From: Clostridia bacterium
GTDB lineage: Bacteria > Bacillota > Clostridia > Peptostreptococcales > Anaerovoracaceae
Length of the DNA: 64,000 nucleotides
Direction: 5' to 3'
NCBI GenBank assembly: GCA_030537495.1
Contig: JAUNMH010000003.1
Location: 1 to 64,000 of the forward strand
Part shown: in pieces, positions 20,085 to 34,409 of the stretch
How positions within the stretch are numbered: the stretch's first letter is position 1
How the letters are laid out: every line of letters begins with the position of its first letter
Notes under the pieces: model-generated
The model's database searches: none
Seen by the model: the letters and a program-made list of their open reading frames with translations, nothing else
Told to the model about the DNA's origin: nothing
Translations under genes and position numbers: made by a program

Positions 20085-20181
20085 GACTAGTATTTTTTTC
20101 GAAGTAGCTTTTTGTCTCGAAAATTCGATCGCAGTAATCAAGAATGTGCGCTATTATGCGCTGGTCTTTGTTCCCTTGCAT
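20085..20181 (-). pseudogene. Truncated HepT toxin remnant
   Basis: Directly after the MntA antitoxin, and overlapping its end by 44 bases, the minus strand has an ATG followed by about 32 codons reading like the start of a HepT/DUF86 toxin: DQRIIAHILDYCDRIFETKS. The family then continues with an RNase segment including the RX4-6H motif. Here the similarity stops near KNTS, and the frame runs through the ptsI terminator into antisense of ptsI. The catalytic part is absent, so no active toxin is expected. This fits a deletion whose endpoint lies close to the terminator. Confidence 0.7.
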
Positions 20182-20461
20182 ACAATAGTTTCTCCTCTCC
20201 CCTTATTTCATCTAAAAACTTTGGACTTAGGCTACCTGTTGTAACTAGGTCAACATGAAGTCCAAGGTCATCCTCAAGGTCAAGGAGCAATCCTGCAAGC
20301 GCAACTCCACCTATTATACTCCCTTTATCTATTCTTAAGTCCACATCACTATTCTCAGTAGCTTCGCCTCTTGCATACGAGCCAAAAAGGAATACATTCT
20401 CAGCTCCATATTCTTTTGCACGAATTGATACTATCTTTTGTATATCTTTGATATTAAGCAT
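20138..20461 (-). CDS. mntA: MntA-type minimal nucleotidyltransferase antitoxin
   Basis: A 107-residue minimal nucleotidyltransferase. The signature GSYARGEATENSDVDLRID supplies the GSX10DXD active site, and a third acidic residue lies in HVDLVT. In HepT-MntA pairs this enzyme transfers AMP groups from ATP to a Tyr of the HepT RNase and silences it. ATG 20461 has GAGG eight bases upstream; a GTG three codons earlier is rejected. The expected hepT follows but is truncated, so the antitoxin appears orphaned. The motif is intact, so the gene may still make protein. It lies between the fru-pts operon and UPF0210, with no mobile-element sequence nearby. Confidence 0.85.
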   Translation of the reverse strand: MLNIKDIQKIVSIRAKEYGAENVFLFGSYARGEATENSDVDLRIDKGSIIGGVALAGLLLDLEDDLGLHVDLVTTGSLSPKFLDEIRGEEKLLYAREQRPAHNSAHS

Positions 20462-20626
20462 ATCTATCACCTCATCTACATTATCACATTAATTTTGACC
20501 TTTGTAAATAATAAAATTGCTCACATTATAAAGCATGTTCATGAATTCATATGTATTACGATAACTTGTAATCAATGTGTATCTAGAATAAAGTGGCTAT
20601 AGACGGGATAATCACACCGCACTTAC

Positions 20627-22428: not shown

Positions 22429-22458
22429 TTTACATTGCAAGGTTTGTCATGATAAAAT
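22429..22458 (+). promoter_or_regulatory. Predicted promoter of the seven-gene glycan-type operon
   Basis: TTTACA (22429-22434) and TAAAAT (22453-22458) are 18 bases apart. They lie about 25 bases before the first gene and back to back with the UPF0237 gene. Confidence 0.5.
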
Positions 22459-22482
22459 GTAATGGGCTATAGGAAAGGGGAG

Positions 22483-23184
22483 ATGTCAGTGAGAGAAGTT
22501 CTCAGAGAAGAAAAAAAGTTTCTGATTAGCGTAGATGAATTTATTTTTCTATCTCATAAACTCGATCAGGTAATGCAGGGCGACCCTCATAACGGTACTC
22601 ATGGGTACATGATAAGATCCCTGTATTTCGATACTATATATGATACTGATTATTACGAAAAGCTAAGCGGTGTAGAAACCCGGCGAAAGATAAGACTTAG
22701 ATGCTATGATCCAAACAGCGATTTCGCTATGCTTGAGATGAAACAAAAGCAAGGATCAAATCAAATGAAAAGATCTCTTAAGGTAGTAAGAGCAGATGCA
22801 GAAGAAATGGCAAGAGGTAATTACTCACCGCTGCTGAAGTACCCCGAACCCTTTGCAGCAGAGTGTTATGGCCTTATGAACTATCGATGTTATAGGCCGA
22901 AAACAATCGTAGAATACAACAGGAAGGCATATATTGCAAAGGAAAACAGAATAAGAGTAACCTTTGATAATAATATAGCTTCTACGGAGAGTAGCTTCGA
23001 CCTTTTCAATCCGAAGCTTAATATGAATCCGGTTCTTGATAAGTATGATGTGGTACTTGAGGTAAAATTCAATGGATTTTTGCTTGACTATATCAGACAA
23101 CTAATAAATCCAGTAAATCGCAGCGAACTATCTGTGAGTAAATATGTTCTGGCGCTTCAGAACAGTTATAAAACCAGACTATAA
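22483..23184 (+). CDS. VTC-domain (polyphosphate polymerase-type) protein
   Basis: A soluble VTC domain of about 233 residues. In yeast Vtc4 this tunnel-shaped fold makes polyphosphate from ATP. Matching basic and acidic tunnel residues are visible in EKKFLIS, RSLYFDT, RRKIRLRCY, LEMKQKQGSNQMKRS and VLEVKF. No membrane segment is present. The next gene encodes the DUF4956 membrane protein that nearly always accompanies bacterial VTC domains. AAAGGGG precedes ATG 22483 closely, and GTG 22489 is an alternative start. It is the first gene of an operon with CotH, a hydrolase-like protein, HEAT, GT2 and EAL genes. Whether it makes polyphosphate or uses the fold for something else cannot be told. 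Confidence 0.82.
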   Translation: MSVREVLREEKKFLISVDEFIFLSHKLDQVMQGDPHNGTHGYMIRSLYFDTIYDTDYYEKLSGVETRRKIRLRCYDPNSDFAMLEMKQKQGSNQMKRSLKVVRADAEEMARGNYSPLLKYPEPFAAECYGLMNYRCYRPKTIVEYNRKAYIAKENRIRVTFDNNIASTESSFDLFNPKLNMNPVLDKYDVVLEVKFNGFLLDYIRQLINPVNRSELSVSKYVLALQNSYKTRL

Positions 23185-23215
23185 GGTGAATAACAATTTG
23201 TAGGAGACAACTTAA

Positions 23216-23893
23216 ATGAGAGAACAAATTTTTAATCTAATCGAAAATCCAAGTAATATGACATGGCAGGAGATTCTTCTGAATCTTACTATGGCAGCTA
23301 TTCTTGGATTCTTTATTTTTATTTCGTATTTTATTTCCCACAGAGGAACCATATACAGCAAGAAATTCAATGCTTCCCTAGTGATGCTTACAGTACTTAC
23401 AGGAACGGTAATGACTGTAATCGGCAATAATATAGCATTGTCTCTAGGTATGGTCGGTGCATTGTCCATTGTACGTTTCAGAACTGCAATTAAGGATTCT
23501 AGAGATACTGTTTATATTTTCTGGACAATTATCGTAGGAATTTGCTGTGGTGTAGGAGATTATGTTGTTGCAGCCATAGGAAGCGGAATTGTTTTTGTGA
23601 TTATTCTTATTCTTGGATGCATAAAAAATGATAACAGAATGTTATTCATAATGAGAGCTGACCGCGCTAAGCAGCCTATGATTAAGGCTCAGGTATATAA
23701 GCTCTTTGATGGAAAGGCAATTCTTAGAGTAGAAAATACCACAGAAAACTCAGTAGAACTTATTTACGAACTGACACAGAAAATGGTTCAGAAGGCTGAG
23801 AAAACAGAGCCTGATATTTCAGACAGCATATACAGAATAGGTAATGTGGAATATGTAAACCTTGTTATGCAAAATGACGAGATATCCAATTAG
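23216..23893 (+). CDS. DUF4956 membrane protein
   Basis: A 225-residue membrane protein with about four helices in its first 140 residues (for example MAAILGFFIFISYFIS and VGALSIVRFRTAIKDSRDT) and a cytosolic C-terminal domain of about 80 residues. The SIVRFRTAIKD stretch is the hallmark of DUF4956 and resembles a MgtC-like loop. Bacterial VTC-domain proteins are usually encoded beside DUF4956, and the pair may form a membrane complex. AGGAG is nine bases upstream of the ATG. The gene lies 31 bases after the VTC gene and 14 before cotH. No reaction is known. Confidence 0.85.
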   Translation: MREQIFNLIENPSNMTWQEILLNLTMAAILGFFIFISYFISHRGTIYSKKFNASLVMLTVLTGTVMTVIGNNIALSLGMVGALSIVRFRTAIKDSRDTVYIFWTIIVGICCGVGDYVVAAIGSGIVFVIILILGCIKNDNRMLFIMRADRAKQPMIKAQVYKLFDGKAILRVENTTENSVELIYELTQKMVQKAEKTEPDISDSIYRIGNVEYVNLVMQNDEISN

Positions 23894-23907
23894 GAGAGGA
23901 AAAATCT

Positions 23908-25404
23908 ATGAAGCATAAGGCAGTTGGAATAATCGGCTGCGTTGTTATTCTCATCGTCGGGATAATTAACTGGCCGGGAATATTTCACACGGAGGATAAT
24001 CAGAGATATCATCAGCATCTGGATGCGCCAAAGAAAGAGGCGTGTACTAAGGTTCATAGCCCTAGTGAGCTTTGTTCCCACCTTCCTCTGATAGAAATAG
24101 ACACGGAAGGAAAGAAAATCCCTGGGGCAAGGAGAACTGAGGCCGAGAGAAAGCAGTTCCTCAAGGACGCGCAAAACCCAGGTGTTACAGATAGAATTAC
24201 CGCACATATGGAGATTGATGACAGCGAAAAAGAATACAATCATATAAGTGATGAGCCGGCTGTATCTAGCGATATAGTTATTCATGTAAGGGGATACTCA
24301 TCTAGACGTTTTGATAAACTTGGATACAGAATTAAGCTTGTCGATGAAAAAGGAGAGAACAACCCGCAGAGCCTTATGGGTATGGATGCTCACGACGAGT
24401 GGGCTCTTCATGGACCCTTTTTGGACAAGACTTTGCTCAGAAACTACATGATGTACAATATTGCCGGTGAGATTATGGACTATTCGCCAAATGTAAGATT
24501 TTGCGAGCTGGTGCTCAATGGTGAATATATGGGCGTGTATGTTTTGACGGAGCTTATTAGCGAGGGCAAAGACGGTTCTAGGTTGCAGTTGTCCGTGAAC
24601 GAGAAGAATGAGACCTATACCGGCTATCTGCTCAGATTAGATAGAAAAAACAATGATATTTCGGACTGGTTACCGAGCCTTACAACTTACAGTCTAAGAA
24701 ATGACACCGACTTGAAGCTGGATGTTGAGTTTCCTTCTCAGAGAAAGCTGACGGAGAAAATGCGAAAGTCCATAAACGACGATTTCTCACAGTTTGAGAA
24801 GGCCTTGTACTCTTATGATTACGATAACAAGAAATTCGGATATAAGAACTATATAGATATGGACTCTTTTGCTGAATATTTTATCATCAATGAAGCAACG
24901 GTCAACTACGATGCGGGAAGCTACTCGACATATATATACAAGGATGTTGACCGTAAACTGAAAATGTGCGTATGGGACTTTAACAACGCCTGTGACAACT
25001 ATCAGGAGCAGTCACTTATGGACGTACAGCATTTTAATACACATACGAAGCTGTGGTTTGAGATGCTTATAAAGGACGAAGATTTCGTGGGCTGCGTGAT
25101 ACAGAAATACAGATATCTTCGCAAAGATGTTCTAAGCGAGGAATATTTGGATTCTTATATAGACGATGTTGTTGAATATCTAGGCCCTGCCATAGATAGA
25201 AACTTCGAGAAGTGGGGATACACATTTAATGACAATACTCTACTTGATCCGGCAAGCAGAAATATTCATTCCTATGACGAAGCTATAAATCAGCTGAAGT
25301 CCTTCTTCCATGTGCGCCTAAACTGGATGGATGACAACATTGAATCTTTGAAGCAGTACTGTGCAGAGTCAAAAATAAAGAAATATAACGAAGTTAATGA
25401 ATAG
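23908..25404 (+). CDS. CotH-like protein kinase-fold protein, exported
   Basis: A 498-residue CotH family protein with an N-terminal signal anchor (GIIGCVVILIVGIINWPG). CotH of Bacillus is an atypical kinase that phosphorylates spore-coat proteins. Family features here are IVIHVRGYSSRRFDKLGYRI, the lobe around LHGPFLDKTLLRNYM, FAEYFIINEATVNYD and the metal-binding CVWDFNNACDN. The signal anchor places it outside or on the outer face of the membrane, where it might phosphorylate an exported protein or glycan. CotH is often encoded with VTC/DUF4956, as here. No spore-coat genes are nearby, so a spore role is not supported. Confidence 0.85.
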   Translation: MKHKAVGIIGCVVILIVGIINWPGIFHTEDNQRYHQHLDAPKKEACTKVHSPSELCSHLPLIEIDTEGKKIPGARRTEAERKQFLKDAQNPGVTDRITAHMEIDDSEKEYNHISDEPAVSSDIVIHVRGYSSRRFDKLGYRIKLVDEKGENNPQSLMGMDAHDEWALHGPFLDKTLLRNYMMYNIAGEIMDYSPNVRFCELVLNGEYMGVYVLTELISEGKDGSRLQLSVNEKNETYTGYLLRLDRKNNDISDWLPSLTTYSLRNDTDLKLDVEFPSQRKLTEKMRKSINDDFSQFEKALYSYDYDNKKFGYKNYIDMDSFAEYFIINEATVNYDAGSYSTYIYKDVDRKLKMCVWDFNNACDNYQEQSLMDVQHFNTHTKLWFEMLIKDEDFVGCVIQKYRYLRKDVLSEEYLDSYIDDVVEYLGPAIDRNFEKWGYTFNDNTLLDPASRNIHSYDEAINQLKSFFHVRLNWMDDNIESLKQYCAESKIKKYNEVNE

Positions 25405-25418
25405 AAGGGAGGCGGAGC

Positions 25419-27608
25419 ATGAAAAAATTTATAGCAGTTTTGGTATGCATTGCTGTAGTGGCAATATCCGCCGACATTCTTTATTACAGAATCGGAGTAT
25501 ATGTAGATCTGCATCCGGACAAGAAGGTGGAAACTTTTGTAAAAACCCAAGGAGACAAGGTTTTAATGAACAAAGGCAATGGCTATGAAGAGTTCGAAAT
25601 CAAGGGCGTTAACATGGGTTCGGGCATACCTGGCAAGTGGTCTACAGACTTTGCCATAGACGAAGACACATATTTGAGATGGTTCGGATACATAAAAGAA
25701 ATGGGCGCAAACACCATAAGAGTGTACACAATTCAGAATAGCGAATTCTACGATGCCTTCTACAAATACAACGAAAACAATCCAGACCCTCTCTACATGA
25801 TTCACGGCGTCTGGGTCAACGACTACGTTCAAAATTCCCATAGGGACGCCTACGACAAAGATTTTTTTGACACCTTCCAAAAGGACTGTCTGTCCATGAT
25901 CGACGTAATCCATGGGAAAAAGAAAATCCACCCTGGAGAAATTAACAGCGCCGGATCCGGAAAATATTTGAAGGACATATCCCCTTGGGTGATTGGCTAT
26001 ATTTTAGGCGTAGAATGGGAGGATATTACCGTAGCCTACACCGATGACAAGTATGGTGATAACGAGAAATATAAAGGCTATCATGGAAAATATTTAGAGA
26101 CCACTGATGATGCCACTGTCTTTGAAACCCTCCTTGCCAAAGTCGGCGACAGCGTAATGAAATACGAATCCAAGAGATACAAGGTGCAAAAGCTTTTGGC
26201 ATTTTCCAACTGGCCGACTACAGACCCTTTCACATATTCAGAAGAAATTGAGGATTTGTATATGAAGTGCGCCTGTGTAGACACGGAGCATATCAAAACC
26301 ACCAAGGACGTAATATCCGGTCAGTTTGCGTCCTACCACGTGTACCCTTATTATCCTGATTATCTTACATGGACAGATGACTGGAAGTCTTATGGAGTAA
26401 GTAAGAAAGATTATATGGAGAAGGGAGAGACTAACACCTACAGAGCCTATTTAAGTATGCTGACAAAGCATCACTCCATGCCTGTGGTTATTTCAGAATT
26501 TGGTGTGTCAACAGGTAGAGGAATGGCTCATCAGGATTTGAATACCAATAGAAACCAGGGTCATATGTCGGAGCAGGACCAGGGCGATGCATTGAGAGAA
26601 TGTTATGAGGATATTAAGTCTTCAGGGTGTGCGGGGTCTTGTATTTTCTCATGGCAGGATGAGTGGTTCAAACGTACATGGAATACTATGTATGCTGTTG
26701 ATATGACTAGAAATCCGTATTGGTCAGATTACCAGACCAATGAGCAGTATTTTGGACTCCTCTCTTTTGACCCTGGAGATAAAAAGTCTGTCTGCTATGT
26801 AGACGGCGACGTCTCTGAATGGAGGGACAAGGACCTTGTTGTGGACAATGGGGATATGCAACTTTCAACTAAGTACGATGAGAGATTTGTATATTTCTTA
26901 ATAAAAAAGAAAAATCTGAATTTTGAAAAAGATACTATTTATGTGCCTATGGATATAACACCGAAGTCAGGCAGCAGCTATTGTAGCAACTTCGACCTTA
27001 AGTTTGACAGAGGTGCAGATTTTGTTATGAAAATTGATGGCAGAGATAACAGCAGGGTAATGGTACAGGAAAGATATGAGGTTTTACGCTCTACTTACTC
27101 CCAAAACCTTGATGGTTTTGATACTTATCTTAAAGATAATCTGCCGGCAAAAGATGCACCTGGGTTCACCAATATAGATATGATTCTTGAAATAATTAAC
27201 CCTGACAAGAAGATGCACCCGAAGAAGGCATTAGATGACTTTGATGCGTCTTTTGAGACAGGAAAACTGCGTTATGGGAATGCTAACCCGGAAGCGGAGA
27301 ACTTTGACTCCCTAGCAGACTTTATTTGTAATGGGGATTATGTTGAGGTTAAAATCCCTTGGCAGATCCTTAACTTTGCAGACCCGTCAACTATGGAAAT
27401 TCACGATGATTATTATGACGGAAACTATGGGATTAAATACATCAATATTAATAAGATGTACCTGGGAATCACTGAAGGCGGAAAAGAAAGATGTAAGCTG
27501 GAGCCTATGGAACTTAAGGGCTGGGACCGAAAGGTTACCTACCATGAGAGATTGAAGAAATCATATTACACGATGCAAAAGGTATGGGGAGGAAAGAGCG
27601 CAGGATGA
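25419..27608 (+). CDS. Exported TIM-barrel glycoside hydrolase-like protein with beta-sandwich tail
   Basis: A 729-residue protein with an N-terminal signal anchor (residues 5-25). Residues about 45-450 look like a clan GH-A (GH2/GH5-like) TIM barrel: IKGVNMGSG at the start, MGANTIRVYTIQ in an early strand, a candidate acid/base Glu in LGVEWED and the strand-7-type nucleophile motif VISEFGVS. Residues about 465-729 begin DGDVSEW and resemble a CBM9/DOMON-type beta-sandwich. In synthase-dependent exopolysaccharide systems, such a hydrolase trims or releases the growing polymer. The gene overlaps the HEAT-repeat gene by four bases (ATGA). GGGAGG precedes the ATG. The sugar specificity is unknown. 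Confidence 0.7.
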   Translation: MKKFIAVLVCIAVVAISADILYYRIGVYVDLHPDKKVETFVKTQGDKVLMNKGNGYEEFEIKGVNMGSGIPGKWSTDFAIDEDTYLRWFGYIKEMGANTIRVYTIQNSEFYDAFYKYNENNPDPLYMIHGVWVNDYVQNSHRDAYDKDFFDTFQKDCLSMIDVIHGKKKIHPGEINSAGSGKYLKDISPWVIGYILGVEWEDITVAYTDDKYGDNEKYKGYHGKYLETTDDATVFETLLAKVGDSVMKYESKRYKVQKLLAFSNWPTTDPFTYSEEIEDLYMKCACVDTEHIKTTKDVISGQFASYHVYPYYPDYLTWTDDWKSYGVSKKDYMEKGETNTYRAYLSMLTKHHSMPVVISEFGVSTGRGMAHQDLNTNRNQGHMSEQDQGDALRECYEDIKSSGCAGSCIFSWQDEWFKRTWNTMYAVDMTRNPYWSDYQTNEQYFGLLSFDPGDKKSVCYVDGDVSEWRDKDLVVDNGDMQLSTKYDERFVYFLIKKKNLNFEKDTIYVPMDITPKSGSSYCSNFDLKFDRGADFVMKIDGRDNSRVMVQERYEVLRSTYSQNLDGFDTYLKDNLPAKDAPGFTNIDMILEIINPDKKMHPKKALDDFDASFETGKLRYGNANPEAENFDSLADFICNGDYVEVKIPWQILNFADPSTMEIHDDYYDGNYGIKYININKMYLGITEGGKERCKLEPMELKGWDRKVTYHERLKKSYYTMQKVWGGKSAG

Positions 27609-28729
27609 ACATAGAAAGAATGCTATATGTGTATTTGTTTATCTGTCTTGGCATGATTTTCTTCGACGTGGCTATGGCAGTGTCTTTTAGGCGTAGAGAA
27701 AAAAGGACCGTGAAAGTCAGCAGTGAATTTCGGGATAAAGTAAGCCGGGAACTTGAAAATATTGAAAAAGGCGGCAAGGTAGACGAAGCACATAAGCAGT
27801 TTATGGAAAAGAAGCTGAAGAAAATTAATAATATGATTGCCTTTGACGGAATGCTTGAGGAGATTTTTGACGAGAAGGAAGAACTTGTAAAGGAATACCT
27901 GTCTCAGCTTGAGTCTGTTTTTGCGGATCTTACTTCTTACTACTGTAAGCGAAATCAGCTGGAGTCGGCCTATTACCCGTATATTATAAAAAAATACAGG
28001 CTCATTGAAGGAAACCCCAATTCAAGTATAGTTGAGGCCATGTATCGGATGCTTAATATAGACTATCTTTATGGCAGGGAAAATGCTATGCAGGCTATAT
28101 ACACCACTGGTGACAGCCACTGTGTGGTTAAGGCTGTAAAGATATTAGACAGAAGCAATATATTTTTTAATAGCAAGCTATTGACTGATGGACTGCTGAA
28201 TTTCACAGGCGATAGAGCAGAGCTTGACAGGCAGTTTACTCATGATTTTGAGAATTTTTCACCTGAGATGCAGGTGACATTACTTAATTTTCTTAGATTT
28301 TCATCGGGGGATCATCAGGAGTTTGCTTGTTCGCTTCTTTCTGATGAGCACCGCGATAATGAACTGAGATATTCGGCTATAAGATATTTGGCAAAATATC
28401 CTTATGAAAAAGCTGGAGAATTGATTAGCAAAATGGCGGTGAGTGGAAGTGATGCCAGCTGGCAGTACGCCGCTATCGCATCTACAGCTCTTGCATCCTA
28501 TCCTTCGGCGGAAAATATTGAGATTCTTAAGAATAATTTATATAGCTCCAATTGGTATGTCAGATTCAACTCTGCTGACAGCCTGGAAAAGCTGGGAATT
28601 ACTTATTTAGAACTTGTTGAGGTTATCGACGGTGAAGACAGATACGCATCGGAGATACTTAGATATAGAATGAAAGCAGACAAAATGAAGACTGATAATA
28701 TGAGAAAAAAGGAGACTCAAGGCGCATGA
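27605..28729 (+). CDS. Membrane-anchored HEAT-repeat protein
   Basis: A 374-residue protein with one N-terminal membrane helix (LYVYLFICLGMIFFDVAMAV) and a cytosolic helical solenoid. Repeats such as RYSAIRYLAKYPYEKAGELI, WQYAAIASTALASYPSAENI and WYVRFNSADSLEKLG fit HEAT/PBS-lyase-like repeats. Such proteins act as scaffolds. Start and stop overlap both neighbours by four bases (ATGA), so it is tightly coupled to the hydrolase-like and glycosyltransferase genes. A structural role in the glycosyltransferase complex is the natural guess. An ATG at 27584 lies inside the upstream gene and is rejected. Confidence 0.75.
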   Translation: MNIERMLYVYLFICLGMIFFDVAMAVSFRRREKRTVKVSSEFRDKVSRELENIEKGGKVDEAHKQFMEKKLKKINNMIAFDGMLEEIFDEKEELVKEYLSQLESVFADLTSYYCKRNQLESAYYPYIIKKYRLIEGNPNSSIVEAMYRMLNIDYLYGRENAMQAIYTTGDSHCVVKAVKILDRSNIFFNSKLLTDGLLNFTGDRAELDRQFTHDFENFSPEMQVTLLNFLRFSSGDHQEFACSLLSDEHRDNELRYSAIRYLAKYPYEKAGELISKMAVSGSDASWQYAAIASTALASYPSAENIEILKNNLYSSNWYVRFNSADSLEKLGITYLELVEVIDGEDRYASEILRYRMKADKMKTDNMRKKETQGA

Positions 28730-30129
28730 TTGACGGAATAGATTTGTTTCTTAAAATAGTGGGAGTATTTTTCATAATCTATCTTATTGGGTACTCAACT
28801 TTTCTGTTTTTATCTGTCGTCGTAGGCTCGTCAGAGCTTTACAAGATTCATAGGCAGAAGACATTACAGAATTTCCTGCCCAATGATTATTTTATACCTA
28901 TTTCCATAATAGTTCCTGCGTACAATGAAGAAGTTACTGTTGTGGAAACGGTGAAATCCCTATTAGGACTTGAGTATAAACTATATGAAATTATAGTGGT
29001 TGATGATGGCTCAAAAGATAATACAACTCTGGAATTAATAAACGCCTTTTCTATGTATCCGGTGCAGAAACCTATAAGAATGCAGGTGGATTGCAAGCCT
29101 ATTGAATATGTGTACGAAACCAATGACTACAAGGTTCCTATAACTGTAATACGAAAGGAAAACGGGGGAAAAGCAGACGCTTTGAATATGGGGATAAATG
29201 CTTCAAGTTATCCATACTTCATCTGTATGGATGCTGACTCAGTTCTTCAGTATGACTCACTTCGAAACATCGTTGAGCCTATATTGACTAGGGATAATGT
29301 AGTTGCAGTGGGAGGCCTCATAAGAATTTCTAACGATGTGGAACTGGAAAGAGGACGAGTGAAGCGTTACAGACTGCCAAAAAAACTTATACCATGTATG
29401 CAGGTTTTAGAATATGACAGGTCTTTTCTTGCTTCAAGAATATTATTTGATAAGTTTAATGGTTCCCTTATTATATCTGGGGCATTTGGATTATTCCGAA
29501 AGGACGTAGTCATAGATTCAGGCGGTTATGACAGAGAGACTATGGGTGAGGACATGGAACTTGTTGTAAAGCTTCATGAATACTGTACTGTAAATAATAT
29601 AGACTACAACATATGTTATGCAACGGATGCAATTTGCTGGACGCAGGCACCGGAAACCCTGAAGGACCTGAAAAAACAGAGGAAAAGATGGCACCTGGGT
29701 CTGTTCCAGAGCATGTACAAACACAGGCAAATCCTCTTTAATCCAAAGTTTGGTGCAGTCAGCTTCATTTCGTATATGTACTTTTTAGTATATGAGCTAC
29801 TGTCACCGTATATTGAAATATTCGGCGTGCTTACTATGATTTTGGCGGCCATGTTCAACCTTATTAATATACCGTTTATGATAATGTTCTTTATGATCTA
29901 CGCTGTTTTTGGAAGCATATTGTCGCTTACAGCCTTCTTCTCGAGAATGTACACCTCAGATCTAGAGCTATCTGTAGGAGACGGGCTGAAAGCATGCCTC
30001 CTTTGCATTTTTGAAATTACCATATTGCGTTTTATTTTGGCATGGGTAAGAGGAACTGCATTTAGAGGGTATAGTGATAAGAAACTGCATTGGGAAAAGG
30101 TTGAAAGAAAGAAGATTAACTTCAAGTAG
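28726..30129 (+). CDS. Processive family-2 glycosyltransferase (membrane synthase)
   Basis: A 467-residue GT2 synthase of the cellulose/poly-GlcNAc/hyaluronan synthase type. There is an N-terminal membrane helix (FLKIVGVFFIIYLIGYS). The cytosolic GT domain has VVDDGSKDNT (UDP-binding Asp), MDADSV (metal-binding DXD), GEDMEL (catalytic TED/GED) and QRKRW (the QxxRW that holds the acceptor). Three to four helices near the C-terminus would form the export channel. No PilZ domain is visible, so any c-di-GMP effect must act through another protein, such as the EAL protein encoded next. The polymer cannot be identified from sequence. The four-base overlap with the HEAT gene implies translational coupling. 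Confidence 0.88.
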   Translation: MIDGIDLFLKIVGVFFIIYLIGYSTFLFLSVVVGSSELYKIHRQKTLQNFLPNDYFIPISIIVPAYNEEVTVVETVKSLLGLEYKLYEIIVVDDGSKDNTTLELINAFSMYPVQKPIRMQVDCKPIEYVYETNDYKVPITVIRKENGGKADALNMGINASSYPYFICMDADSVLQYDSLRNIVEPILTRDNVVAVGGLIRISNDVELERGRVKRYRLPKKLIPCMQVLEYDRSFLASRILFDKFNGSLIISGAFGLFRKDVVIDSGGYDRETMGEDMELVVKLHEYCTVNNIDYNICYATDAICWTQAPETLKDLKKQRKRWHLGLFQSMYKHRQILFNPKFGAVSFISYMYFLVYELLSPYIEIFGVLTMILAAMFNLINIPFMIMFFMIYAVFGSILSLTAFFSRMYTSDLELSVGDGLKACLLCIFEITILRFILAWVRGTAFRGYSDKKLHWEKVERKKINFK

Positions 30130-30148
30130 AGGGGAGGCAAGAGAAGGC

Positions 30149-32110
30149 ATGAGGTCTTTGAAGAAAATTCACACTATTTTAATAGTGACAGCGAGCCTGT
30201 GGCTCGCCTTTACTGGTTTTGTTTATGGTGACGTAACAACAGCAGAATCTCAAACCGGCAGAGCAGACACTGTCTACGTAGCAGGAAATCCCGACGCTTA
30301 TCCTATAGAGTACTATGACTCAGAAGCGGGAGAATACAAGGGCCTGATACCAAAACTCCTAGAAGAGATTTCGGATGAAACAGGCATTTCTTTCACCTAT
30401 GTATCCGCAGGGAAAGACAACGTTCAGAGTGACCTGGCGCGAAATAAGCAGGTGGACATGGTTACTGCCATTACATCCAAAGGCATTAAGGCATGCAGGC
30501 TGACAGACGATCTCAGCACTCGGGTTATAACCACCAAGGAAAAAGGCCATACAAAAACCTACTACATAGGTTTTACGGATATAGCAGATAAAAAGGAGGC
30601 TGCATCCATTAAGGCTGCTCTTTCAAAAATAACGGAAGAGGAAAAAACGGGAATACTTCTTTCCATTGCCAATGAAGGCAGAGGATTCTCCAGCAGGACC
30701 TTGTATGTCTATGCAACCCTTGCTTTTGCAGTGGCAGCAGTTGCTGTTGCAGTATTAGCTTTGTTCATAAGTAAAAAAAGGCGTAAGAGAGAGGAACGAA
30801 TTGAGCTTGTAGATCCTGAAACGGGACTAGGAAATGCTCGGTACTACCAATATATCTTCGATAATTTTATTGGAGACGGCAGACGAAATATTTACAACGG
30901 AGCGTATTTTTCCTTTGACGGCGAAAGGGTGGAAAACCTTTGGGGAGAGCATATTCGTAAGGGAATCCAGGGCATAGCAGCAGAATATTTAAATAGTATT
31001 ACGGAAAAGGATGAATATATTTCGCGGGTTGATAAGGATTCTTTCGTGCTTCTATTTACAGGTGGTAACCATGAGGAGTCCTATAATCGAGCGAGAAAGA
31101 TGATTACAGGATTAACTGAAAAACTGACAAGCAGCAACGCTCAATGGAGAAATCTTTTCCACGAGGGTGTGTGCTACCTAAGCCAGTATCCTGACTCAGG
31201 CAGCGAATCATTTCTATATAATATGAGGCAGGCCTATCTCCACGCAGAGGATAAGGAGCTTTCTTTCTATTTAGGAAGTGGAAAACAGACAAGAGATAAG
31301 AGGAAAAGGGAAAAACTCTGCCGTCAGCTTAATGATAGCATAGAAAAGGGCGAATTTGAGCTTTATATGCAGTTTATAGCAGAAAGCAGCGGCGGTAATA
31401 TCTGTGGTGCGGAAGTTCTTTCCCGCTGGCAAAACCGCGAATACGGCCTTCTGAAGCCAAATGAATATATTGAGCTGCTTAGAGAAACTGGCAATATTTT
31501 AGAGCATGACTTCTATATATTCGAGCAGGTATGCAGGTTACTTGAAAAATGGAATGAGCCACCATATGAGCATCTATTTCTCACATGTAACTCTACGAGA
31601 ACCTCTGCATCTAAAGAGGGCTTCGCAGACCGCATAAGGGAAATAGCTGAGAGATATACTTTTGACAGAGGCAGATTGATTCTGGAAGTTACAGAGGACT
31701 CTGTGGCAGGCGATGAGGAGTGCATAAATGAAAATATAAAGGAAATCCGAAACCTGGGCTTTAACGTTGCCATCGACGATATGGGAGCTGGATTCTCTGC
31801 TTTGGCTGACTTATACGACAATGAAATAGAAATTGTTAAACTGGAAAGAGAACTTCTCGTAACTTGTAAAAAAGCGAGACAGAAGCAGATGCTCCGCGAC
31901 CTCATCCTTATGATTCATGACCTGGGAGCCAGGGTTATTTGTGAGGGCGTGGAAACCAAGAAGCAGATGGATTTCATGGCTAGCTTGGACTGCGACTTCC
32001 TTCAGGGATACTATTTCTCCAGGCCACTGCCAAGTGACCAGTGGGACAACTTCCTAGCATCAAAACCAACAGTTAGCGCCCTTCCACTGAGGTCGCTGAA
32101 GGAAAGCTAA
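30149..32110 (+). CDS. Membrane receptor with SBP-like sensor, degenerate GGDEF and EAL phosphodiesterase domain
   Basis: A 653-residue signalling protein. A signal segment is followed by an extracellular SBP-3-like sensor (about 45-195, with the binding-protein phrase EYYDSEAGEYKGLIPKLLEE). A membrane helix follows (about 205-230), then a GGDEF-like domain (about 240-400) whose signature is replaced by RVDKDSFVLLF, so cyclase activity is not expected. The EAL domain (about 405-640) keeps the catalytic set: Glu in GAEVLSRW, Asn in LTCNST, Glu in LEVTED, Asp-Asp in AIDDMGAGFS, Lys in EIVKLERELL, Glu in CEGVET. It should hydrolyse c-di-GMP in response to an outside ligand. As last gene of the operon it is the probable regulator of the glycosyltransferase. 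The ATG at 30074 lies within the GT gene; 30149 has GGGGAGG upstream. Confidence 0.85.
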   Translation: MRSLKKIHTILIVTASLWLAFTGFVYGDVTTAESQTGRADTVYVAGNPDAYPIEYYDSEAGEYKGLIPKLLEEISDETGISFTYVSAGKDNVQSDLARNKQVDMVTAITSKGIKACRLTDDLSTRVITTKEKGHTKTYYIGFTDIADKKEAASIKAALSKITEEEKTGILLSIANEGRGFSSRTLYVYATLAFAVAAVAVAVLALFISKKRRKREERIELVDPETGLGNARYYQYIFDNFIGDGRRNIYNGAYFSFDGERVENLWGEHIRKGIQGIAAEYLNSITEKDEYISRVDKDSFVLLFTGGNHEESYNRARKMITGLTEKLTSSNAQWRNLFHEGVCYLSQYPDSGSESFLYNMRQAYLHAEDKELSFYLGSGKQTRDKRKREKLCRQLNDSIEKGEFELYMQFIAESSGGNICGAEVLSRWQNREYGLLKPNEYIELLRETGNILEHDFYIFEQVCRLLEKWNEPPYEHLFLTCNSTRTSASKEGFADRIREIAERYTFDRGRLILEVTEDSVAGDEECINENIKEIRNLGFNVAIDDMGAGFSALADLYDNEIEIVKLERELLVTCKKARQKQMLRDLILMIHDLGARVICEGVETKKQMDFMASLDCDFLQGYYFSRPLPSDQWDNFLASKPTVSALPLRSLKES

Positions 32111-32112
32111 GG

Positions 32113-32149
32113 AAAACGGGACCATCTCAAGTTGAGGTGATCCCGTTTT
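32113..32149. terminator. Bidirectional terminator between convergent glycan-type operons
   Basis: AAAACGGGAxCATCTCA and TGAGGTGxTCCCGTTTT form a stem of about 17 bp with one mismatch and a three-base loop. A and T runs are at the two ends. Confidence 0.85.
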
Positions 32150-32150
32150 A

Positions 32151-33023
32151 TCAATTATCAATTGTATCCTCAATAACCGTATTATCTCTTATCCATCCAC
32201 ACCAGTCTCTATAATACTTTGCAAGAAGGTGGGCATTGTCGGCAGAGTATTTCTCAGCTAATGCACCATTAGCATCATCAAACTTGCTGTTAGCTTCTAT
32301 ATAGAAGACGTGAATGTTGTCAGCCAGTCTCTCAGTGAATCTGTTAATAGTGTTGATTCTAGCATTGTTAAAGTACTCGTCTGAATCTGAGCGTTCCTTA
32401 GTTATATGAAGATTACCTTGAATATATATCATGGCATCAGGCTGAGCCTTGCGGATATAGTGAATCAAGGACTTATATGCTGCTTTTATGGATTCCTTAG
32501 GATATCCAAGTTCATTGATTCCTAGCATTACATATATCTTGCCGTATTTCTTCTGACCCAGAAGCTCCTTAAGTGTTACATTTCCAACTCCTTCAACATC
32601 TACGGAATCTTTGAAAATATCAATAGTTGTCATACCTGTTGAGCAGAAGAAGTCGGACTTATTAAAGTCTCCATATTCCCAAATTCCGACAGTTCTTGAG
32701 TCACCTATGAATAGAGCATCTTCAAAGTAGCCCTTAGGTGCCTTTCCAAATTCTGGCGGATTAGCCTTGTGAGGACCATTTTTATTAGCCTCCGGAAGGA
32801 AAGGAATTGGAACTGGCTTCTCAGGCAATTTAATACCGAAGTCAGGTCTAGGTACAACTGAAGGTATACGCAGGCTTTCCTCTGTTGGATAATAAATTGC
32901 AGGCGTTTCAGCCGGCTCATCAGGAGTATTAAGAGCACTGTAAATTGTGTGTACAATAGGCACCACAATGCAAGTCAGTAAGAATACTAGTACGAATATT
33001 GCTGAATATTTCTTTTCTCTCAT
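32151..33023 (-). CDS. Membrane-anchored SGNH/GDSL hydrolase, MBOAT partner
   Basis: A 290-residue protein with an N-terminal membrane anchor (FVLVFLLTCIVVPIVHTIYS), a proline-rich spacer, and an extracellular SGNH domain. The catalytic Ser is in LFIGDSRTVG, block III is VMLGINELG, and the Asp/His pair is in SADNAHL. Enzymes of this fold encoded beside an MBOAT protein (such as AlgJ/AlgX or PatB partners) transfer or remove O-acetyl groups on surface polysaccharides. The MBOAT gene ends 18 bases upstream on the same strand, so the two likely work together. Possible acceptors are the polymer of the convergent operon or a wall glycan. Confidence 0.85.
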   Translation of the reverse strand: MREKKYSAIFVLVFLLTCIVVPIVHTIYSALNTPDEPAETPAIYYPTEESLRIPSVVPRPDFGIKLPEKPVPIPFLPEANKNGPHKANPPEFGKAPKGYFEDALFIGDSRTVGIWEYGDFNKSDFFCSTGMTTIDIFKDSVDVEGVGNVTLKELLGQKKYGKIYVMLGINELGYPKESIKAAYKSLIHYIRKAQPDAMIYIQGNLHITKERSDSDEYFNNARINTINRFTERLADNIHVFYIEANSKFDDANGALAEKYSADNAHLLAKYYRDWCGWIRDNTVIEDTIDN

Positions 33024-33041
33024 CTCTTATCACCCCCACAA

Positions 33042-34409
33042 CTAAAATCTGAAATACAAGAACGGATCGTTCATGCCAATATACAAGCAGTATACGGAAC
33101 CCCAGAAAATAGCCAAATATATTGGAATTTCAATATAGTGGGTTTTGATAGCGGTGAAGAACTTTTCAGGCAGTCTCGTCGAGAACAGCAGACCTGCCAC
33201 AAGTACGTACTTGAAGTCTAACAGGTTCTTTAGGAAGTCTCCCTCGAAGACGTTTACCGGACCGTTTCCAAAAATTGGGAACAGTCTGGTGAAGTAGACT
33301 CCTAACTGGCTGAAATCGGTGATGGCGAAGATGCACCAAGTCAGCGGAATCAGGAATATCATGTAGATATGTCCTGCAAGGTGATGGCTGTTCATGAAGT
33401 CGCCGATAAACAGCTTTTCTACCAACATAATTACGAATAACAAAACTCCCCAAAGCACGAAGTTCCATGCAGCGCCGTGCCATAATCCTGTCAGAGCCCA
33501 AACTGCAAATAGGTTGAATATCCATCTTCCTGTGCTTACTCTGTTACCGCCAAGGGGGATATATACGTATTCTCTGAACCAGCTTCCCAAAGTCATATGC
33601 CAACGACGCCAGAATTCTGTCATTGTCAGTGATGTATACGGGTGGTTGAAGTTCTTTGGAATGTTGATTCCAAGCATTTTACCAAGGCCGATTGCCATTA
33701 GGGAATAGCCCCAGAAGTCAAAGTACAGCTGGAAAGAGTATGCTACGATACCAAGCCATGCTAGTTTTGTTGAAATGCTGTCGTAACCGATGGTGGAAAG
33801 CTGAGTCCACAGATTGCCTACCTGGTTGGCGATGAGAACTTTCAGACCCAGGCCGTAAACAAAGTTTCTGATCCCTTCAGCGAAAACTATATAGGAGAAA
33901 GAACGCTGTCTCTCAAGCTGAAGGCTTACATCCCTATATTTTACAATAGGCCCAGCGATTAGCTGTACGAACATGCTGACATATGCACCGAAGGTGATAA
34001 ATGAAAGCTCGGCTCTGATATCGTCTCTGTACACGTCAATCAGATAAGAAACCATCTGGAAGGTGTAGAAACTTATACCTAGAGGCAAAATCAGTCCCAA
34101 ATTGGTGTTCAGAATGAAGTCGGCGTACTTAAATAGGAAAAGCCAGCCGAAGTCATAGACGAGACCAATTATAAGGGGAAGTTTTTTACCATACTTTCCG
34201 GTATGAATAAGAAGACCCAGTATGTAATTGACCCCAATTGAGAACACAAACAGCAAGATGTAAGACGGCTGTGAAACAGCTCCTACTGAGTAAAATATAA
34301 TGCTGCTTACGAAAATAATTGTATTCTGATATTTTTTTGGTGCAAGGTAATACACCAGTAGCACAATAGGCAAAAACTTAAATATAAAATCAATGCTTGA
34401 AAAAACCAT
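33042..34409 (-). CDS. MBOAT O-acyltransferase (DltB/AlgI-like)
   Basis: A 455-residue membrane-bound O-acyltransferase with about ten helices. It starts in the family manner (MVFSSIDFIFKFLPIVLL) and has the conserved NFNHPY-type loop (IPKNFNHPYTSLTMTEFWRR) and the catalytic His in LTGLWHGAAWNF. These proteins move an acyl group, usually acetyl, across the membrane to an extracellular acceptor. DltB works with DltA/C/D in D-alanylation, but none of those are here. With an SGNH partner gene following at once, AlgI/PatA-type glycan O-acetylation fits better. Its position in an envelope-gene run after murT/gatD-like genes supports a surface-glycan role. Confidence 0.9.
   Translation of the reverse strand: MVFSSIDFIFKFLPIVLLVYYLAPKKYQNTIIFVSSIIFYSVGAVSQPSYILLFVFSIGVNYILGLLIHTGKYGKKLPLIIGLVYDFGWLFLFKYADFILNTNLGLILPLGISFYTFQMVSYLIDVYRDDIRAELSFITFGAYVSMFVQLIAGPIVKYRDVSLQLERQRSFSYIVFAEGIRNFVYGLGLKVLIANQVGNLWTQLSTIGYDSISTKLAWLGIVAYSFQLYFDFWGYSLMAIGLGKMLGINIPKNFNHPYTSLTMTEFWRRWHMTLGSWFREYVYIPLGGNRVSTGRWIFNLFAVWALTGLWHGAAWNFVLWGVLLFVIMLVEKLFIGDFMNSHHLAGHIYMIFLIPLTWCIFAITDFSQLGVYFTRLFPIFGNGPVNVFEGDFLKNLLDFKYVLVAGLLFSTRLPEKFFTAIKTHYIEIPIYLAIFWGSVYCLYIGMNDPFLYFRF

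Follow-up and report, generated by a model that had tools for sequence, protein, structure and literature searches.

A widespread operon linking VTC, DUF4956 and CotH genes to a putative exopolysaccharide synthase in Bacillota and Actinomycetota

Results

The operon and its boundaries

The window analysed here, a stretch of 64,000 nucleotides from contig JAUNMH010000003.1 of a Clostridia bacterium (Anaerovoracaceae), contains at 22489-32110 seven genes on one strand, encoding in order a VTC protein, a DUF4956 protein, a CotH-family protein, a TIM-barrel hydrolase, a HEAT-repeat protein, a family 2 glycosyltransferase (GT2) and an SBP-GGDEF-EAL protein. An earlier note made from the sequence had placed seven open reading frames with these domains at this position and on this strand, and this is borne out by the list of open reading frames, by Pfam and, for the fourth protein, by a structure model. 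The features are as follows.

22429-22458, + strand: promoter-like site, TTTACA-18-TAAAAT with TG ahead of the second hexamer (consensus scan)
22489-23184, + strand: VTC, polyphosphate-polymerase-like (TTM fold) cytosolic protein (PF09359, 4.8e-40)
23216-23893, + strand: DUF4956, MgtC-like membrane protein with a C-terminal ACT-like domain (PF16316, 1.4e-12)
23908-25404, + strand: CotH-family putative kinase with an N-terminal signal anchor (PF08757, 5.3e-58)
25419-27608, + strand: clan GH-A TIM-barrel hydrolase-like protein, membrane-anchored, with a C-terminal beta domain (structure model and Foldseek)
27605-28729, + strand: HEAT-repeat protein, a single membrane segment at its N terminus (PF13646, 1.1e-6)
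28726-30129, + strand: GT2, processive-type polysaccharide synthase (PF00535, 1.1e-29)
about 30149-32110, + strand: transmembrane sensor and predicted phosphodiesterase, SBP_bac_3, degenerate GGDEF and EAL (EAL, 1.4e-54)
32113-32149, no strand: predicted two-way intrinsic terminator, a 16-pair hairpin between A and U tracts

By their coordinates, consecutive genes are separated by 31, 14, 14, -4 (ATGA), -4 (ATGA) and 19 bases. The tight packing described previously therefore stands, with gaps of at most 31 bases and ATGA overlaps numbering two, whereas the start given as 22429 has to be moved, that position being the -35 box of the promoter-like site. The start of the HEAT gene is likewise corrected to 27605 and that of the EAL gene to about 30149. 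The reading frame of the VTC gene opens with ATG at 22462; the preferred start is GTG at 22489, more likely than 22429 or 22462 because of its ribosome-binding site, AGGAAAGGGGAG. A promoter scan of the region as a whole gave 26 matches against 27.7 in shuffled sequences, that is, no enrichment, so that the promoter-like site is weak evidence. At the other end, the hairpin at 32113-32149 has a folding energy of -21.4 kcal/mol (z = -5.45), and none of 200 shuffled sequences was equally stable. This strong predicted terminator closes the operon directly after the EAL gene and parts it from convergent genes for an SGNH hydrolase and an MBOAT protein (32151-34409, - strand), a typical O-acylation pair just behind the operon. 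The pair was considered as part of the system and rejected, as it is convergent, lies beyond the terminator and is unmatched in every related locus.

Conservation of the gene order

Within the family, a search of 198 genomes from 92 genera found the TIM-barrel protein in 16 genomes and 11 genera, with the gene order mostly retained. Scanning GTDB contigs with an alignment of this protein gave at least 501 relatives, of which the best 80 were read; these were picked by their likeness to the TIM-barrel protein of the window, so that the proportions given here describe close relatives rather than all bacteria. They include members of the Lachnospiraceae, Oscillospiraceae, Erysipelotrichaceae and Eggerthellaceae and extend over Bacillota and Actinomycetota. 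Fifty-nine of the relatives had sufficient flanking sequence on either side. Counted over all open reading frames, VTC, DUF4956 and CotH genes are present in every one of these, and the complete core of six genes from VTC to GT2 occurs in order in 57. Since this order is kept in 57 of 59 relatives, the operon is not a chance arrangement; it is real and widespread. The exact six-gene operon is also found on a Planococcus plasmid, where an independent annotation reads polyphosphate polymerase, DUF4956, CotH, hypothetical protein, HEAT and glycosyltransferase. In phylogenetic trees, operons of the type seen in the window form one DUF4956 subclade (support 98/93) and one VTC clade (96/87).

An EAL gene follows GT2 within 1 kb downstream in 34 of 47 loci, compared with eight EAL matches in 475 kb of flanking DNA. 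The earlier note had asked whether the VTC/DUF4956/CotH and HEAT/GT2/EAL halves ever co-occur elsewhere, and they are decisively found joined; its proposal of a single functional unit is upheld by the six-gene order and by a natural fusion of HEAT and GT2, described below.

Two further gene families recur at these loci. A gene for a DivIVA-like coiled-coil protein of about 170 residues lies between GT2 and the EAL gene in 24 loci (for example, L079:14874-15374); Pfam recognised DivIVA in 12 of 16 members of the family, and a search of PDB sequences with the alignment of the family returned just coiled-coil noise. Its presence suggests that the synthase may be placed at the pole or septum. An exported family of about 300 residues, here called FSW after a motif that it carries, is encoded in 19 loci (including L072:3526-4410, L074:6200-7108 and L079:17178-18116), mostly just ahead of VTC or else following the EAL gene; a Pfam search of one member gave no match.

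The core synthase module

The GT2 motifs DDGS, DAD, GED and QRKRW are invariant or almost so; across 70 sequences, conservation of residues D94, D169/D171, E275/D276 and Q318-R319-R321-W322 is 95% or higher. With hydrophobic segments at residues 1-36 and 358-443, the D, D, D, QxxRW pattern and the C-terminal membrane helices support a processive-type membrane synthase, the assignment proposed earlier. In one relative (L040), HEAT and GT2 are fused in a single protein of 1010 residues, encoded beside an ODP-GGDEF-receiver gene. Because of this natural fusion we have strong evidence that the HEAT and GT2 proteins work together. Viral relatives of the HEAT protein were sought and none was found.

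The sequence of the TIM-barrel protein has no match in Pfam, NCBIfam or PDB. Its structure model (m324c488ffc09, pLDDT 76) is a TIM barrel for which Foldseek returned GH157 (9fz9) as the best match at 1.5e-11, followed by GH2, a GH5-type mannanase and GH72 (Gel4), all of which belong to clan GH-A. Residues E199 and E360 occur in 71 and 74 of 76 sequences, respectively, and are likely to be the acid/base and the nucleophile. The model thus supports a putative clan GH-A hydrolase anchored in the membrane, in keeping with the hydrolase-like protein of the earlier note.

TIM, HEAT and GT2 genes are found in the absence of VTC, DUF4956 and CotH on plasmid pRadio2 of Deinococcus radiophilus (L204) and in one further genome (G066, L029). 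As the three stand by themselves in Deinococcus, we therefore divide the operon into a core synthase and an accessory cassette. The pRadio2 TIM-barrel protein is annotated as a TPR protein.

The accessory cassette

The best match to a profile of the VTC protein is yeast Vtc4 (3g3q, E = 6.5e-5). Its tunnel residues R6, K10, R69, R71, R145, R156, E191, K193 and K218 are invariant in 71 sequences. VTC polymerases differ from TTM phosphatases in having basic residues at the tunnel exit in place of four Glu (PMC4641920). Of these four positions three were mapped: R6 and K193 are basic, in agreement with Vtc4, and E8 is acidic, like its counterpart in the phosphatases, with E191 and K193 matched by motif. 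The tunnel is thus mostly polymerase-like, with a phosphatase-like E8, and the protein may be a polyphosphate polymerase. The DUF4956 protein was modelled (pLDDT 77) as helices followed by a beta-alpha fold, the best PDB match being the C-terminal domain of MgtC (2lqj); it is predicted to consist of membrane helices and an ACT-like domain, in the manner of MgtC. In CotH, K137, R178 and D357 are invariant in all 74 sequences and there is a single N-terminal hydrophobic segment. Two of these, K137 and D357, are the lysine and the metal-binding aspartate expected of the kinase fold, making it a putative kinase.

Phosphoesterases of the purple-acid (PAP) type lie in or beside the operon at four loci (L102, L105, L081 and L192). 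The genome of the window itself (G000, contig C1) encodes an exported protein of 2665 residues (L201:7802-15799, - strand) in which a phosphodiester glycosidase (NAGPA), a purple-acid-type metallophosphoesterase, fn3 and CotH are fused. Together the fusion and the phosphoesterases hint at extracellular glycan phosphate chemistry, none of them being decisive.

The cassette at other synthases

Sixty DUF4956 loci were fetched in a survey of the phylum. VTC adjoins DUF4956 in 58; next to the pair stand CotH (27 loci), Cthe_2159 carbohydrate-binding proteins (22) or neither (11). In L125, L134 and L143, for example, Cthe_2159 carbohydrate-binding lipoproteins follow VTC-DUF4956 in the place of CotH. 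A class-wide search for CotH in a sample of 392 genomes separated a synthase-linked subfamily scoring at least 380 bits, near full length, from the rest at 238 bits or less, and the neighbourhoods to be read were chosen with the help of this division. Most full-length matches to this subfamily are at loci of the TIM type and two lie beside a cellulose-type synthase.

The CotH, VTC and DUF4956 proteins closest to those of the window are also found at other synthases. At three loci (L158, L196 and L197), the cassette stands beside a PilZ cellulose-type synthase, MBOAT and an AlgX-type protein, with GH5 in two of the three; at two more (L145 and L147), it stands beside a GT2 operon with bactofilin-like and DHHW genes. 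The DUF4956 proteins of the TIM, PilZ-cellulose and GT2/bactofilin loci form one clade (99/98). PelG is found beside CotH, VTC and DUF4956 in L165 and L173, where the cassettes belong to a VTC clade that is different from, and neighbouring, that of the window. From the arrangement of these loci, VTC-DUF4956-CotH appears as a movable add-on to several polymer machines. In the pel locus of Streptococcus intermedius, deletion of the DUF4956 or the CotH gene alters the amount of Pel and aggregation, Pel being more abundant in the DUF4956 mutant and reduced in the CotH mutant, with no such change reported for the VTC-type mutant (PMC12345266). The authors of that 2025 study did not find the trio outside Pel; it occurs outside Pel many times among the loci read here, which contradicts their observation as a general rule.

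The c-di-GMP receptor

In the last protein, an SBP-like domain outside the membrane is combined with a degenerate GGDEF domain (DKDSF) and an EAL domain. Aligned to MorA (4rnh), the EAL domain has E422, N481, E513, D543, D544, K564, E599, E602 and Q619 at the expected spacing. These are all nine of the catalytic residues expected; the domain appears catalytically complete and is predicted to be a phosphodiesterase of cyclic di-GMP (c-di-GMP), as had been suggested. The genome carries several GGDEF matches in other genes. A c-di-GMP input is thus linked to the synthase locus, though not universally (34 of 47 loci).

Comparison with known systems

The closest published counterpart is NELoc-2 of Clostridium perfringens (CP4_0458-0468; PMC2879425), with the order VTC, a membrane protein of ~226 residues, CotH (497), a hypothetical protein (685), HEAT (377) and a GT2 'chitin synthase' of 466 residues. 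Compared by published order and lengths only, it has the same six genes in the same order and at near-equal lengths as the window, where the proteins from VTC to GT2 have 231, 225, 498, 729, 374 and 467 residues. In NELoc-2, unlike the window, the VTC/membrane pair is duplicated and accompanied by a resolvase, and there are SigI-type sigma/anti-sigma genes and a polysaccharide deacetylase; EAL is unlisted. Later surveys mention genes for HEAT, CotH, glycosyltransferase and polyphosphate polymerase proteins and assign them no function (PMC11677781, PMC5964661).

Gram-positive Pel operons with CotH/PPP/DUF4956/DUF4832 genes (PMC7112168, PMC12345266) share with the window the accessory trio and a TIM-barrel hydrolase beside a synthase-dependent polymer, and those of bifidobacteria carry a diguanylate cyclase/phosphodiesterase gene. 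They use a PelF/PelG synthase, unlike the window, and a search of the genome of the window for PelG (PF16933) gave no match, on which Pel was rejected. Both the NELoc-2 order and the cassette at Pel had thus already been published, without being linked. The interpretation in the earlier note is supported in part; the note overlooked the NELoc-2 order (PMC2879425) and the cassette at Gram-positive Pel operons, for which some mutants are described (PMC7112168, PMC12345266).

With the clostridial cellulose synthase Ccs (PMC7710045) the likeness is to other loci: L158 and L196 have the cassette and then Ccs-like MBOAT, AlgX-type, PilZ GT2 and GH5 genes, and L197 has the same set with GH5 not in view. 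The GT2 of the window, in contrast, lacks a PilZ domain and is a poor match to the CelA model, while the neighbouring MBOAT/SGNH genes are convergent and unconserved. Bcs or Ccs cellulose was rejected on the CelA score (39.8 bits, cut-off 699.1) and the lack of PilZ in the genome. The closest NCBIfam model for the GT2 is PgaC_IcaA, of the synthases of poly-N-acetylglucosamine (PNAG), which have the common single-chain QxxRW architecture; at 152.6 bits it falls well below the cut-off of 422.3 bits, on which PNAG was rejected, and the PgaB/IcaB and PgaD/IcaD partners are absent from the operon. The Listeria Pss system (PMC4125290) is also a GT2 operon in which the last gene has a degenerate GGDEF for c-di-GMP control. 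PssE is a GGDEF I-site receptor, whereas in the protein of the window the EAL domain is intact and the degenerate motif is not preceded by RxxD.

Elsewhere in the window, a small Polbeta-type nucleotidyltransferase is encoded between the PtsI and UPF0210 genes (20138-20470, - strand); it is possibly an MNT-like toxin-antitoxin or defence gene.

Discussion

We read the locus as a synthase-dependent exopolysaccharide operon of three modules, a core, an accessory cassette and a control module, and give this reading a probability of roughly 0.7. The GT2 would polymerise a sugar nucleotide and export the chain by a membrane channel of its own, with the membrane-tethered HEAT protein as its cytosolic partner, and the anchored TIM-barrel hydrolase would trim or remodel the chain outside the cell. 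VTC, DUF4956 and CotH would jointly phosphorylate the emerging polymer or a surface partner, so tuning its amount and stickiness; that the cassette acts outside the cell on the polymer or its partners is probable. For the control module, c-di-GMP would raise polymer output, and binding of a ligand by the outer SBP-like domain would lead EAL to degrade c-di-GMP, so that output falls.

The anatomy of the operon supports the polymer reading well; that a polymer is made, what it is, how phosphate is added and which way c-di-GMP acts are what we infer from it. Several observations weigh on the other side. The polymer is predicted from the genes, and the operon itself lacks any sugar-nucleotide or deacetylase gene. 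The VTC-DUF4956 pair is not bound to CotH or to synthases, and E199 is not retained in 5 of 76 hydrolase sequences. The EAL gene is not a fixed part of the operon, 13 of the 47 loci having none adjoining GT2. As for a route from c-di-GMP to the synthase, a search of the genome for PilZ domains found none, and Rfam gave no c-di-GMP riboswitch in the window.

Known CotH kinases phosphorylate proteins, namely CotB and CotG of the spore coat. The cassette might be regulatory rather than polymer-modifying, with VTC acting on small molecules as a phosphohydrolase or serving as an energy sensor, DUF4956 an MgtC-like membrane sensor, and CotH phosphorylating a surface protein such as the hydrolase, together setting the activity of the synthase. 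The likeness of DUF4956 to MgtC with its ACT-like domain, a sensory fold, fits this picture, as do the S. intermedius mutants, in which loss of DUF4956 raises Pel, loss of CotH lowers it and no such change is reported for loss of the VTC-type gene (PMC12345266). It is a less easy account of a VTC protein in which E191-x-K193 is retained as in Vtc4 and the basic residues of the tunnel are invariant, and the recurrent PAP-type phosphoesterases and the NAGPA, PAP and CotH fusion fit glycan phosphate better, so that we consider it possible and rather doubtful.

Another proposal is that the product is a glycan associated with the cell wall or the spore instead of a free exopolysaccharide, with CotH and the DivIVA-like gene marking septum, pole or spore surface. 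The 24 loci in which the latter lies between GT2 and EAL speak for it, as does the origin of the CotH name in spore coats; yet the operon is found in Eggerthellaceae, the core in Deinococcus and the cassette in streptococci, all of them non-sporulating, and we regard this proposal as unlikely. That VTC/DUF4956/CotH and HEAT/GT2/EAL are unrelated neighbours sharing a transcript would be in line with each half being found without the other, but it is very hard to reconcile with the joined order in 57 of 59 loci across two phyla, with the overlaps and short gaps, or with the single supported clades formed by the VTC (96/87) and DUF4956 (98/93) proteins of these operons, and we give it almost no weight.

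Returning to the exopolysaccharide operon, one specific form of the phosphate step would have VTC make polyphosphate from ATP in the cytosol, DUF4956 move it across the membrane and CotH, outside the cell where ATP is absent, spend it as phosphate donor in phosphorylating the emerging polysaccharide. We hold this to be quite improbable as it stands. If true, it would amount to a polyphosphate-driven extracellular glycan kinase, a portable add-on for several exopolysaccharide synthases.

The analysis brings NELoc-2 of C. perfringens, so far uninterpreted, and a set of accessory genes in the Pel operons of Gram-positive bacteria that had lacked an explanation into one testable picture, with the VTC-DUF4956-CotH cassette standing next to four or more kinds of polysaccharide machine. 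It also points to a candidate exopolysaccharide operon, widespread in Bacillota and Actinomycetota and as yet without a name, that has cultured carriers such as Planococcus maritimus XJ11, Blautia parvula and Clostridium fessum, in which the roles of bacterial VTC and of CotH outside spores become directly testable.

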